64,000 nucleotides of DNA from the NCBI GenBank assembly GCA_902552345.1, contig CACDGO010000001.1, positions 124,001 through 188,000 on the forward strand. Direction: 5' to 3'. The position numbers and the translations under genes were made by a program. The notes below the pieces were generated by a model, which did not search any database, was not told the origin of the DNA, and worked only from the letters and a program-made list of their open reading frames with translations. This document shows, in pieces, positions 59,594-64,000 of this stretch. The DNA is from an uncultured Pelagibacteraceae bacterium (GTDB lineage: Bacteria; Pseudomonadota; Alphaproteobacteria; Pelagibacterales; Pelagibacteraceae). The first letter of the stretch is position 1; every line of letters starts with the position of its first letter.

Positions 59594-62038
59594 TTATGCA
59601 ACTAGTTCTTCAGCTCTCTGTAAATCTACAGAAACTAGTTGGCTAACTCCTTGCTCAGCCATTGTTACACCGTAAAGTCTGTCCATTCTGGACATAGTCA
59701 AAGCATGATGAGTAATAATTATAAATTTAGTATTCGTAATTTTAGTTAGATCATCAAGTAATCCACAAAATCTTGTTACATTTGCATCATCCAATGGAGC
59801 GTCAACTTCATCTAAAACACAAATTGGTGAAGGATTAACCAAAAACACTGCAAAAATTAAAGACAAAGCAGTTAAAGCTTGTTCACCACCGGAAAGCAAT
59901 GTTATAGACTGAAGTCTTTTTCCAGGTGGAGATACAAACATTTCCAAACCTGCTTCCAAAGGATCATCGGAGTCAACTAATTCTATTTTTGCAGTACCAC
60001 CATTAAATAACTTTGTATAAACTTCATTAAATTTTCTGTTAACTTTTGTATAAGCTTCCAGTAAGCGCTCTCTTCCTCTTTGATTTAATTCATCTATACT
60101 TGTCTTCAACTTAACGATTGCTGAATAAAGATCAGCTCTATCGTCTTCCATTTTTTTAATTTCAGTTTCAAATTTTTTTGTTTCCTCGTCTGCTCTTAAG
60201 TTTACAGAACCAAGCAACTCTCTTTGTTTCTTAATTTTTTCAATTTTTTCACTTTGATCCTTAATAGAGGGTAAATTTCCGGGTTCTATTTCGATTAAAT
60301 CAGATTGCGGTAGTATTGAAGACTCATTTTCGATATTAAGCTCATTTTTTACAGAGTATAGTAAATCTTTTTTTCTGTTCTCTATTCCCTCAACAGTTGC
60401 TTCATTTCTAGCTTTGCTTTCCTTAAGATCAGTAAGTTTTAATTGTATGTTTCTTAAATTTTCATTAATTGAGCTAAATTTTTTTTCAGCTTCAATTAAT
60501 TCGTTTTCGATTTCCTCATTTCTCTTCTTAATATTCTCTAAATTTTGTAAATTTTGCCCTTTAGAAGTTGCTATTCTTTCAGGATTTTTTTGATTATCAT
60601 TAATTTCAAGTTTAAATTTATTTTTTCTGTCATTTAGTTCAAATATCATTTTTTCAGAATTTGTTTTTAAATTTCTCCAGTTTTCTAGTTCTACGTCAAT
60701 ATTTTTGATCCTTTCTTTTCTTTTAATAGAATCACTTTCGATAGATTTCTTTTTTCCATATTTTTCAGCATATTCCTCTTGAGAAAGAGTGATCTTTTTC
60801 ACAAGCTGTTTTAATTCTTTAAATGTATCTTTTGAAAGTTTTTTATTATTATCAATGTCCGATTCAATTTGATCTAAAATAGTATCTAATTGACTAAGCA
60901 ATTTGTTAAGTTCAGACTTAGACATTAGAAGTTCACTTGATGAATTTTTTTCAACATTTAACAACTTATTTTCTGTATCAAGAAGATCTTCCTTTTCCTT
61001 TAAAATTCTTTTTTCATTAAGATTAGCATCTAACGATATACTTTTTTCTCTCTCAAGATCTGAGTCAACAGTTTTTACTGATTTTTCTAATTTATCTTGT
61101 AATGACTTTACTCTAGCCTCTTCCTGAACAAGATTTGTCATATCTAAATTTAGTTTTTGCAAAGTAGCAGCACTTTCCATCTTTTTATCTCTTAAAGGTG
61201 CAAGTTTTTTATTCTCTTCCTCTAGCAAAGTATTATTATGATTATAATCAATGTTAATCGCACTTATTTCGTCATCTAATTCGCTAATTTTTTCTTGAAT
61301 TTGTTTTTTGTCTTTTTCAATTTCTTTTATCTTTAGAAAATAAAGACCAGCCTCAGTTTTTTTTATTTGCCCGGAAATTTCTTTATATCTTGTAGCTTCT
61401 TCAGCTTGTTTTTTTAAATTATCGAGTTGTTTTTGTTGCTGTTTTTTTAATTCATCAGCCCTTTTAAGATTATTTTCAGCAGCATTAAGTCTTGTTTCAG
61501 CTTCTTGTCTCCTAGCATGAATTCCAGAAATTCCAGCAGCCTCCTCTAAAATAGATTTTCTCTCTGTAGGTTTCGCCGTAACTAACTGTCCAATTCTTCC
61601 TTGACTAATTAGTGATGGAGAGTGAGCGCCAGTAGAGAGGTCAGCAAAAAAAGTTTGAACGTCCCTAGCTCTCACCTCTTTATCGTTGATGTAATATTTA
61701 GAACCTTTATCTTTTTCGATTTTCCTTTTAATTGATATTTCATCAAAATCTTTATATTGAATAGGTCCTTTTTTTTCTTGGTTATCAAGCAATAATGCAA
61801 CCTCAGAAATATTTTTTGATGCCCTGTTAGAAGTTCCAGAAAAAATCACATCTTCCATCCCGGAACCTCGCATACTCTTTGCAGAGTTTTCACCCATACA
61901 CCATCTAAGCGCTTCAACGATATTTGACTTACCACACCCGTTAGGACCCACAATTCCAGTAAGCCCTTTCTCAATCAATACAGTAGTCTTTTCTGAAAAA
62001 GACTTGAAGCCAGTCATCTCTAAATTTTTAAATTTCAT
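59594..62038 (-). CDS. smc: Short SMC-family chromosome protein with no recognisable hinge
   Basis: This 814-residue protein has the SMC ATPase halves intact: Walker A GPNGCGKS (31-38), TGAHSPSLISQGRIG, then at the other end the ABC signature LLSGGEQAL (714-722), Walker B VLDEVDAPLDD (D743-E744) and a D-loop, with ITHHALTMS. Bacterial SMC is normally about 1,150 residues, with a globular hinge of about 120 residues between two coils. Here residues about 165-650 are one charged coiled-coil stretch; the central SKSELNKLLSQLDTILDQ to YGKKKSIESD segment shows no glycine-rich hinge. It sits in the usual mutY-dciA-dsbA-smc order, so it is the housekeeping SMC. How it dimerises is unclear. Confidence 0.92.
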   Translation of the reverse strand: MKFKNLEMTGFKSFSEKTTVLIEKGLTGIVGPNGCGKSNIVEALRWCMGENSAKSMRGSGMEDVIFSGTSNRASKNISEVALLLDNQEKKGPIQYKDFDEISIKRKIEKDKGSKYYINDKEVRARDVQTFFADLSTGAHSPSLISQGRIGQLVTAKPTERKSILEEAAGISGIHARRQEAETRLNAAENNLKRADELKKQQQKQLDNLKKQAEEATRYKEISGQIKKTEAGLYFLKIKEIEKDKKQIQEKISELDDEISAINIDYNHNNTLLEEENKKLAPLRDKKMESAATLQKLNLDMTNLVQEEARVKSLQDKLEKSVKTVDSDLEREKSISLDANLNEKRILKEKEDLLDTENKLLNVEKNSSSELLMSKSELNKLLSQLDTILDQIESDIDNNKKLSKDTFKELKQLVKKITLSQEEYAEKYGKKKSIESDSIKRKERIKNIDVELENWRNLKTNSEKMIFELNDRKNKFKLEINDNQKNPERIATSKGQNLQNLENIKKRNEEIENELIEAEKKFSSINENLRNIQLKLTDLKESKARNEATVEGIENRKKDLLYSVKNELNIENESSILPQSDLIEIEPGNLPSIKDQSEKIEKIKKQRELLGSVNLRADEETKKFETEIKKMEDDRADLYSAIVKLKTSIDELNQRGRERLLEAYTKVNRKFNEVYTKLFNGGTAKIELVDSDDPLEAGLEMFVSPPGKRLQSITLLSGGEQALTALSLIFAVFLVNPSPICVLDEVDAPLDDANVTRFCGLLDDLTKITNTKFIIITHHALTMSRMDRLYGVTMAEQGVSQLVSVDLQRAEELVA

Positions 62039-62041
62039 TTA

Positions 62042-62635
62042 TCAAAGTTTTTTTTCTAAAGCTTTTTTAAACTCTTTATAATTAACTTTACCAGTATATT
62101 TTTTTTCATTAATAAAAATAGTAGGCGTTGACTCTATTTTATATTTTTTCTGAGCTTCTATTCTTTGGTTCAATATTTCATCCTGCACTTTTTCATTTTT
62201 TAAACAATTTTCCATATTTTCATCCGTTAAATCGATAAGTGATCCAATATTTTTTATTGAGTTATTTATTTTGTTTATATCAGATCCTACAGCCCAAGAT
62301 TTCTGTTTTTCATATATTTTTTCTAAAAGTTTAAATTTTTTATCGTTATCATTATGGCATCTCACTATAATTTCAGCATTTAATGCAGCCAGGTCCAAAG
62401 GAAAAGCATGGTGCTCAAATTTAACCATACCTTTATCTATATAATCTCTCTTTAAATTTTCAAAAATTGAATTATGAAAATCTGCACAATGTGGGCAAGT
62501 TAAGGATGAGAAAACTTTTACAACTACTTTAGAATTAGGGTCACCTATACTTAAAATTTTACTTTCTACATTACTAGAAAAAAAAATTAGTAACAAAAAA
62601 ATTAAATTATAAAAATTTTTATTTATTTTTTCCAT
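62042..62635 (-). CDS. DsbA-like thiol-disulfide protein
   Basis: This 197-residue protein has an N-terminal signal segment (YNLIFLLLIFFSSNVES), a thioredoxin fold with the CPHC active site (SSLTCPHCADFHNS), an inserted helical domain, and the cis-proline loop ESTPTIFI. Such periplasmic proteins make or reshuffle disulfides in exported proteins. It is found between DUF721 and smc in most alphaproteobacteria, as here. It overlaps dciA by 17 bases. A one-gene role in cytochrome maturation is also possible. Confidence 0.9.
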   Translation of the reverse strand: MEKINKNFYNLIFLLLIFFSSNVESKILSIGDPNSKVVVKVFSSLTCPHCADFHNSIFENLKRDYIDKGMVKFEHHAFPLDLAALNAEIIVRCHNDNDKKFKLLEKIYEKQKSWAVGSDINKINNSIKNIGSLIDLTDENMENCLKNEKVQDEILNQRIEAQKKYKIESTPTIFINEKKYTGKVNYKEFKKALEKKL

Positions 62636-63104
62636 AAAAAGCTTTCACTAGATTATTAAGAGAACTTTTTAGTTTCTCATTATTAATCTTACTCATTTTT
62701 TTTTTAATTTCGCCTAAATTTTGAATTTTTTGAAAATTTCTTTTTTCCCCTTCAATTTTACTTTGAGTAATTTTAAGTTTTATACTCGAGATACAATCAA
62801 AGCCAAAAAAACTATTTATTTCATCCATGATTTGATCTTTTTTGTACTCTATATCAACCTCTTTACCGTGTATTACGTTAAGAACTAAAGTTCCATTTTT
62901 CATATCTTTCCCCATTTTTATTCTTACTGGATAACAAACATCTGAAATTTTTTTGTTTACCATTTTAGTCCAGTTATCAACTATGCTAGAATAGTTATAA
63001 CCACCTTTTCTCAAATGTTTCTTTAAAGTCTTTGGTATTGAACTCGAAAAAGGACGAAGACCTTGCAAGAAAGAGTGTGTTTTATTATTATTTTTGTTAT
63101 GCAT
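62619..63104 (-). CDS. dciA: DciA-like protein (DUF721), predicted DnaB helicase loader
   Basis: This 161-residue protein has the DUF721 core IVDNWTKMVNKKISDVCYPVRIK, LVLNVIHGKEVDIEYKKDQI and the FFGFDCISSIKLKI strand. DciA is the ancestral bacterial replicative-helicase loader, replaced by DnaC or DnaI in some lineages. Its ATG (63104) and that of the divergent mutY (63099) share the palindrome ATGCAT, so no gap exists between the genes. TTG at codon 13 is an alternative start. It begins the long minus-strand run. Confidence 0.87.
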   Translation of the reverse strand: MHNKNNNKTHSFLQGLRPFSSSIPKTLKKHLRKGGYNYSSIVDNWTKMVNKKISDVCYPVRIKMGKDMKNGTLVLNVIHGKEVDIEYKKDQIMDEINSFFGFDCISSIKLKITQSKIEGEKRNFQKIQNLGEIKKKMSKINNEKLKSSLNNLVKAFYGKNK

Positions 63105-64000
63105 ATATCTGGAACTTTACCAAAAAAAATTTTGGCTTGGTATGATAATAGCAAAAGGAACTTACCTTGGCGTGTTGGCAAAAAGTCACCTAAAAATCTA
63201 TATTATAGGCTTTTAAGCGAATTTATGTTGCAACAAACACAGGTAAAAACGGTTATTCCATATTTCAATAAATTCACAAAAAAATTCAAAACAATAAATG
63301 CTTTATCTAAAAGTAACGAGAAGGAAATTTTAAAAATGTGGGAGGGTCTTGGTTATTACAGAAGAGCAAGAAATCTTCTGGCATGTTCCAAAATTTTAGT
63401 TCAAAATTATAAATGTAAATTACCAAGATCAATTATTGAAATAAAAAAACTTCCAGGAGTAGGCGATTATACTGCAAACGCATTATTAGGATTGGTTTAT
63501 AATGAACCAAGAATAGCAGTAGATGGAAACGTAAAAAGGGTATTCTCAAGATACCTAAACATCGAAGAAATAAAAATAAATTTTAACGAATTTATTAAAA
63601 AAAATAAAAAAAGACTCTTTATCACAAAAAGGAATGATGATTTTGTTGAAGCTTTGATGGAATTTGGTGCATTAATATGCAAACCAAAAGACCCAAATTG
63701 TTTTACGTGTTGTTTGAATAAAACTTGCAAGTATTTTAAGTCTAATAATAAAATTAAGAATATTAGAAATAAAATGATTAAAAATAAAAACTACGATATT
63801 TTTTGTTATATTAACAAAAAAAAACAAATAGCATTGACTAAAAGTAATCAAATTAGTTTTTTAAAGAATTTCAATTTACCAGAAGTAAAAGAAACTAAAA
63901 GTTTTTTAAAAAATCAAAATTGGATATTTCTAAAAAAATATAAAAATTCAATTTCAAATTTGAAATTAAATATAAATTTATATTACAAGTTTTCAAATAA
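63099..64000 (+). CDS. mutY: A/G-specific adenine glycosylase MutY (3' end cut by window edge)
   Basis: The frame is open from ATG 63099 to the window edge, giving 300 residues of an expected 340-350. It matches MutY: AWYDNSKRNLPWRVG, EFMLQQTQVKTVIPYF, GLGYYRRARNL, the helix-hairpin-helix KLPGVGDYTANALLG with the catalytic aspartate in AVDGNVKRV, and four cysteines for the 4Fe-4S cluster (CKPKDPNCFTCCLNKTC). It removes adenine mispaired with 8-oxoguanine. The C-terminal MutT-like part has started. The gene is divergent from dciA and both start codons lie in one ATGCAT. Confidence 0.95.
   Translation, partial: MHISGTLPKKILAWYDNSKRNLPWRVGKKSPKNLYYRLLSEFMLQQTQVKTVIPYFNKFTKKFKTINALSKSNEKEILKMWEGLGYYRRARNLLACSKILVQNYKCKLPRSIIEIKKLPGVGDYTANALLGLVYNEPRIAVDGNVKRVFSRYLNIEEIKINFNEFIKKNKKRLFITKRNDDFVEALMEFGALICKPKDPNCFTCCLNKTCKYFKSNNKIKNIRNKMIKNKNYDIFCYINKKKQIALTKSNQISFLKNFNLPEVKETKSFLKNQNWIFLKKYKNSISNLKLNINLYYKFSN

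Follow-up and report, generated by a model that had tools for sequence, protein, structure and literature searches.

A shortened SMC protein without a recognizable hinge in SAR11 bacteria that retain ScpA and ScpB

The smc locus

We analyzed the window, a 64,000-nucleotide stretch of the genome of an uncultured Pelagibacteraceae bacterium of the SAR11 order, at one end of which lie an smc gene and three neighboring genes (Table 1). The smc frame comprises 814 codons that encode 814 amino acids with no internal stop. A sequence-only reading of this DNA had described an uninterrupted 814-residue frame with a Walker A motif at residues 31 to 38, a signature near residue 714, and a Walker B motif near residue 743. 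The frame is confirmed, the three motifs are found at or close to those positions, and the gene's location on the minus strand is a detail that the reading did not give. The Walker A sequence is identical across the 33 sequences that we aligned.

Table 1. Features of the smc locus and of the encoded protein (positions in the window)
Feature	Residues	Position (strand)	Basis	Remarks
smc, hinge-less SMC	814 aa	59594..62038 (-)	Frame, NCBIfam	Hinge absent by Pfam, hinge model, and profile-profile comparison
N-terminal head part	1-170	61529..62038 (-)	AlphaFold2	Limits approximate
Walker A GPNGCGKS	31-38	61925..61948 (-)	Sequence	Invariant in 33 sequences
Coiled-coil hairpin	171-615	60194..61528 (-)	AlphaFold2	Breaks at 248-254 and ~568-591
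Mid-arm landmark RE	330-331	61046..61051 (-)	Landmark spacing, joint alignment	
Apex turn	397-402	60833..60850 (-)	AlphaFold2	Site of the hinge and its proximal coils in normal SMCs
Mid-arm landmark W	454	60677..60679 (-)	Landmark spacing, joint alignment	
C-terminal part, neck helix and head	616-814	59597..60193 (-)	AlphaFold2	Limits approximate
ABC signature LSGGEQ	715-720	59879..59896 (-)	Sequence	
Walker B ICVLDE	739-744	59807..59824 (-)	Sequence	
DsbA-like thioredoxin gene		62042..62635 (-)	Pfam	Conserved smc neighbor, also in Ensifer L194
dciA (DUF721)		62619..63104 (-)	Pfam DciA	Conserved smc neighbor, also in Ensifer L194
MutY-like glycosylase gene		63063..63998 (+)	Pfam HhH-GPD	Cut by window end; conserved neighbor

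The best NCBIfam name for the protein is TIGR02168 SMC_prok_B (683 bits against a cutoff of 567), a profile of 1181 positions, and the MukB model is absent from the best 25 of 34 NCBIfam matches. Pfam models for SMC_N and AAA match, and the same scan did not find the hinge domain. Of the features of an SMC of SMC-ScpAB, Walker A, the LSGGE signature, Walker B, and the match to the prokaryotic SMC equivalog are present, and the central hinge domain is missing. Order and orientation of smc, the DsbA-like gene, dciA, and the MutY-like gene match an Ensifer locus (L194, where the MutY-like neighbor has HhH-GPD and NUDIX_4 domains), which shows that the gene is the orthologue of the ordinary alphaproteobacterial smc, shortened. 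The 814-residue protein is thus a true member of the SMC-ScpAB type, whose ATPase motifs are intact and whose hinge is gone. PADLOC-DB models, which have no stated cutoffs, also give scores on this protein (Lamassu LmuB, 61 bits; Wadjet JetC, 16 bits); the neighbors scanned are the DsbA-like gene, dciA, and the MutY-like gene. The mad3 model from the same database reaches 179 bits on this same housekeeping SMC (P0001), so defense annotation from mad3 alone may mislabel SMCs.

The partner proteins are retained. In the window's genome (G000), scpA and scpB are adjacent on contig 10 and encode 243 and 228 amino acids; across the SAR11 order, ScpA is found in 125 of 147 genomes and ScpB in 126. 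ScpA of one family of the order (f2) matches PF02616 over the first ~80 to 98 positions only, the remainder being divergent. A second SMC with a normal hinge had been named in the sequence-only reading as a possible refutation; the window's genome, a draft that is 86% complete, yields one match to its SMC and no Pfam hinge anywhere, and two single-contig relatives (G001 and G003) yield one SMC match each. The 64-kb window holds no parS site, though it is too short a span for this to be informative.

Absence of the hinge domain

The hinge is the textbook dimerization site of SMC proteins and has been proposed as a gate for nucleic acids, so its absence needs a sound test. The Pfam hinge model (PF06470, SMC_hinge) matches none of the 147 genomes of the SAR11 order, which says little by itself because the model matches just 91 of 289 alphaproteobacterial genomes and misses the Caulobacter control. 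Where the model does match, it often covers no more than its first 30 to 50 positions. PF06470 is therefore a poor judge in Alphaproteobacteria; we dropped it as the deciding test and built an alphaproteobacterial hinge model from 21 normal SMCs (1104 to 1204 amino acids), each of which was also scored while held out. All 21 held-out proteins were detected, at 87 to 171 bits.

We applied this model to two sets of proteins. The first comprised 57 proteins shorter than 960 amino acids, of which the 53 from the SAR11 order and family f25 (one genome counted twice) scored at most 2.3 bits or gave no hit. The second was drawn from named records, with a complete protein obtained by a motif rule at 72 of 80 loci and the other eight dropped. 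Here, 32 SAR11 and MarineAlpha6 proteins scored at most 1.1 bits or gave no hit, and 38 normal alphaproteobacterial SMCs scored 74.8 to 172.5 bits; a gammaproteobacterial protein (L188) scored 0.7 bits. Profile-profile comparison agrees with the hinge model. It recovers the positive control of short hinge-bearing alphaproteobacterial SMCs at a probability of 99.9 and matches alphaproteobacterial to gammaproteobacterial hinges at 97.0, and five comparisons with the middles of hinge-less proteins give 0.0 to 0.2 (0.1 for the one set against the 99.9 of the control); a remodeled hinge was rejected accordingly. The hinge-domain search that the sequence-only reading had proposed thus found no hinge by either method, with positive controls detected by both.

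It is tempting to equate a short SMC, or a small genome, with hinge loss, and neither rule holds. The four remaining proteins of the first set (L134 to L137, from other families; 869 to 936 amino acids) keep a hinge at 75 to 143 bits. So do an alphaproteobacterial protein of 881 amino acids in the second set (L233, 103.9 bits) and a gammaproteobacterial one of 1008 amino acids (L266), whose genomes measure 1.0 and 1.6 Mb. In these proteins the arms are shortened and the hinge is kept, so shortening of the arms and loss of the hinge are distinct changes.

Extent of the loss and predicted structure

To locate the missing segment we used landmarks, two of which (RE and W, in the arms) were matched by eye first and then checked by a joint alignment, in which the R coincides in 13 of 14 cases and the W in all 14. 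The distance from the EEAAG head motif to RE is 165 residues in all 21 normal SMCs and in 15 of 16 hinge-less representatives, and W lies 193 to 195 residues from the C-terminal head motif in normal SMCs and 188 to 204 in hinge-less ones. The stretch from RE to W measures ~463 residues in normal SMCs (~181, plus 108 for the hinge, plus 174, as a sum of segment medians) and 111 to 197 in total in hinge-less SMCs. The loss is sharply bounded: the head-proximal arms keep near-normal spacing, and the hinge and the hinge-proximal coils are gone.

An AlphaFold2 model built from 33 sequences (mean pLDDT 76, pTM 0.44, head segments below 50 pLDDT) predicts that helices 255-396 and 403-567 are joined by the turn at 397-402 into a single coiled-coil hairpin, with block pLDDT of 74 to 92 across residues 281 to 520. 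In an 857-residue form, one further short helix is predicted at the tip, making three helices in all (pLDDT 91). VIA-align of this three-helix apex returned generic long-helix structures at Z of 10.8 to 12.6, within the noise that the tool states for helical models. With the full model of the 814-residue protein, the best 50 Foldseek rows are SMC, cohesin, condensin, Smc5/6, MukB, and Rad50 chains.

Conservation is distributed unevenly along hinge-less SMCs. The head columns are strongly conserved, the arms reach 0.62 to 0.66, and the apex (residues 379 to 414), at 0.36, is the lowest stretch compared and differs in length between hinge-less lineages. The stretches flanking this variable tip (residues 325 to 342 and 433 to 468) reach 0.68 to 0.70. 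Normal alphaproteobacterial SMCs show the opposite pattern, with 0.60 in the hinge versus 0.40 in the adjoining coils, so the low conservation of the hinge-less apex speaks against one conserved dimer interface there. Two substitutes for the hinge were considered. A Rad50-type zinc hook is ruled out, as the CxxC motif is absent from all nine hinge-less proteins examined. A helical bundle at the apex might show as extra hydrophobicity, and the excess (0.30 versus 0.25 to 0.27) is too slight to decide.

Distribution and origin of the loss

The shortening is common to the SAR11 order, a point that the sequence-only reading had named as support: an SMC match occurs in 136 of 147 genomes, and the complete open frames among the matches listed encode 799 to 891 amino acids. 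Three shorter frames (533, 479, and 348 amino acids) among these matches are possibly cut by contig ends. With six candidates scored per genome, 11 genomes have no SMC match and may represent misses or assembly gaps; five of these (G058, G111, G117, G146, and G019) are at least 90% complete, and each of them has both ScpA and ScpB. One relative of the same genus (G108, locus L007) has a single in-frame TAG within its smc match.

Hinge absence is not limited to SAR11; it extends to f25/MarineAlpha6 and to one gammaproteobacterial clade. Across the Alphaproteobacteria, 206 of 289 genomes have an SMC match, and most frames among the matches listed encode 1143 to 1300 amino acids, some up to 1405. 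Among the same matches, three f25 genomes have collinear SMCs of 806 to 820 amino acids, and three other short frames (987, 888, and 818 amino acids) carry a Pfam hinge match; lengths were searched again in 28 chosen genomes. A search at the scale of the phylum, in 398 genomes that possibly include neither f25 nor the hinge-less gammaproteobacteria, gave no further hinge-less SMC outside SAR11 among the matches listed. Five genomes of one alphaproteobacterial genus (g229 of family f72: G427, G676, G684, G699, and G800; 4.6 to 6.3 Mb) were unmatched by the SMC query, while other f72 genomes match.

The gammaproteobacterial genome AG-447-O13 (1.4 Mb) encodes an SMC of 906 amino acids, the length of the L188 protein, which is of the short collinear kind. 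In the order of AG-447-O13, 110 of 117 genomes have an SMC match: nine genomes of 1.1 to 1.6 Mb (G433, G474, G486, G496, G448, G504, G522, G516, and G462) have collinear frames of 907 to 914 amino acids, two more have similar fragments, and most other frames are at least 1121 amino acids long. A hinge model built from 14 normal gammaproteobacterial SMCs of this order (held-out scores, 146 to 195 bits) gives at most 0.8 bits for six hinge-less proteins and 134 bits for L266. Outside SAR11, ScpA turned up in 13 of the 15 hinge-less genomes (10 of 11 gammaproteobacteria and 3 of 4 f25 genomes, with the L184 genome counted as f25); the genes at L188 run smc, ZipA-like gene, scpA, scpB. The L184 record (PBCY01000020.1) is titled Pelagibacteraceae, its SMC groups with f25/MarineAlpha6, and the title may be a misnomer.

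In a head-region tree of 52 rows (Actinomycetes not included), the hinge-less gammaproteobacteria form one starred clade inside the gammaproteobacteria, and SAR11 forms one starred clade inside the alphaproteobacteria. The gammaproteobacterial small-genome clade, as judged from this tree, lost its hinge independently of the alphaproteobacteria. The tree requires three changes of hinge state; a single loss common to f25 and SAR11, not rejected by an AU test (p 0.30), would bring this down to two. The placement of f25 is unsure, with long branches and uneven composition.

A probable reduced condensin and its alternatives

Taking this evidence together, we lean toward the reading that the SAR11 protein is the housekeeping SMC of SMC-ScpAB minus its periphery (the hinge and adjoining coils), still working as a core motor. 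It would most likely be a natural "core-only" motor resembling the engineered core of Escherichia coli Wadjet, in which nine residues replace the elbow-to-hinge segment and which still cleaves plasmid DNA, read by the authors as loop extrusion (PMC12647877). The sequence-only reading had offered a reduced condensin as one possibility, and the absent hinge, the retained scpA and scpB, and the shortness across SAR11 support it. Its other suggestion, that the protein may dimerize in another way, is set against an apex that is the least conserved stretch compared. By analogy, the core motor activity is probably retained: ATP would bring two SMC heads into engagement, ScpA would bridge the two SMCs and ScpB bind ScpA, and the complex could translocate or extrude DNA through a smaller lumen. 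As the hinge channel is missing, obstacles on a tether of single-stranded DNA or RNA should not pass, and bypass is not expected; the Wadjet core is likewise unable to bypass obstacles (PMC12647877). More tentatively, two coil hairpins may pack side by side near the apex, closing the ring without a dedicated fold. Several points weigh against this explanation: the poor conservation and variable length of the apex, the dependence of the Wadjet core on an engineered disulfide that holds its ring closed, and the chromosome-folding defects of hinge-substituted Bacillus subtilis Smc, eased by a single parS site (PMC12647877), as well as the low model pTM and head pLDDT and the 11 genomes of the order without an SMC match.

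The low conservation of the apex, as evidence against a dedicated interface, leaves an unlikely but serious rival, in which the arms never dimerize and two SMCs are joined only by ATP-engaged heads and ScpA/ScpB. Such a clamp or intermittent ring would compact DNA by clamping or bridging, rather than extrude it processively within a sealed ring. The want of both a dedicated dimer fold and a CxxC hook fits an open clamp, as do the variable apex length and the retention of ScpA and ScpB. However, the engineered Wadjet core was inactive once its ring was opened (PMC12647877), and hinge-less SMCs keep a normal head-proximal arm spacing that a mere clamp would not need. It is quite improbable that the two apices are linked by a separate protein that substitutes for the hinge; the conserved stretches that flank the tip could serve as its docking site, but the same landmarks occur in hinge-bearing SMCs, so their conservation may be ancestral.

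We consider it very improbable that the protein has given up its condensin function for DNA repair like that of Rad50 or RecN. A head and coil without a hinge do resemble Rad50/SbcC in outline, and Foldseek places Rad50 chains (7zr1) among the SMC chains of its best 50 rows, but SMC_prok_B scores above its cutoff while the Rad50 and RecN models fall far below theirs, ScpAB is kept, and there is no zinc hook. Finally, a deletion introduced in sequencing or assembly, or a pseudogene in decay, a concern given the draft genome and the in-frame TAG in one relative, is refuted for practical purposes by the many genomes, single-contig G001 and G003 included, that share a similar length and absent hinge with strongly conserved head columns, and the deletion artifact that the sequence-only reading had allowed for is not borne out.

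Implications

The SAR11 SMC has lost its hinge and outer arm and kept its partner proteins, and thus offers a natural way to learn what the hinge does; it raises the question of how a ring-shaped motor stays joined when its known dimer domain is gone. Few bacterial groups are more abundant in the sea than SAR11, and a condensin without a hinge may therefore be widespread in nature and no mere oddity. Some SAR11 bacteria are in culture. The hinge-less condensin turns the engineered Wadjet-core result (PMC12647877) into a natural experiment.

It is possible, though we would not yet favor it, that marine genome streamlining has repeatedly led to loss of the SMC periphery, with independent losses in SAR11 (with or separately from f25/MarineAlpha6), in gammaproteobacteria of 1.1 to 1.6 Mb, and in the published Actinomycetes, and with the SMC-ScpAB core kept, as shown here for Proteobacteria only. 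If so, the hinge would be an obstacle-passing gate and not a part of the motor, one that small chromosomes with little transcription traffic can do without, and an SMC ring would need no dedicated dimerization domain, whether it closes or stays open. Independent losses would also allow testing of what else changes alongside the hinge.

Comparison with known systems

Compared with the usual bacterial SMC of SMC-ScpAB (TIGR02168, Ensifer L194), the SAR11 protein is alike in ATPase motifs, head-proximal arm spacing, gene neighbors, and ScpA/ScpB. It differs in the missing hinge and in the shrinkage of the RE-to-W distance. Rad50/SbcC shares the head and coiled coil and also lacks an SMC hinge; it has a CxxC zinc hook (PMC12153180), whereas the SAR11 protein has none and scores below the Rad50 model cutoffs. 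In B. subtilis, Smc(Zh), with a Rad50 zinc hook replacing the hinge, grows normally on rich medium (PMC5344682). It forms an SMC-ScpAB complex that works without its own hinge, as the SAR11 protein would, but Smc(Zh) carries a foreign dimerization domain and none is recognizable in SAR11. The engineered ecJET core (PMC12647877) likewise has its periphery removed and its core retained, yet it is engineered, belongs to Wadjet and not to ScpAB, and has its ring closed by an added disulfide.

The closest natural counterpart, and the one case of naturally hinge-less SMCs reported in the literature searched, is the "hinge-less" SMC cluster that Sussfeld et al. 2025 (PMC12153180) assigned to marine Actinomycetes and did not find beside a regular SMC. 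The SAR11 protein fits that description, with an SMC head and antiparallel coil, no hinge, no CxxC, and a marine origin; it differs in coming from another phylum, presumably by another origin, and section 15 of that paper contains no ScpAB analysis. The words SAR11, Pelagibacter, and SAR86 do not occur in its main text, and in the literature searched, which includes few subscription papers and preprints, hinge-less SMCs are unreported for SAR11, f25/MarineAlpha6, and the gammaproteobacterial clade. As a kind, then, the hinge-less SMC is already known, and as far as our searches reach these three groups are new cases, which add to the published ones that ScpAB is retained and precisely how far the loss extends.
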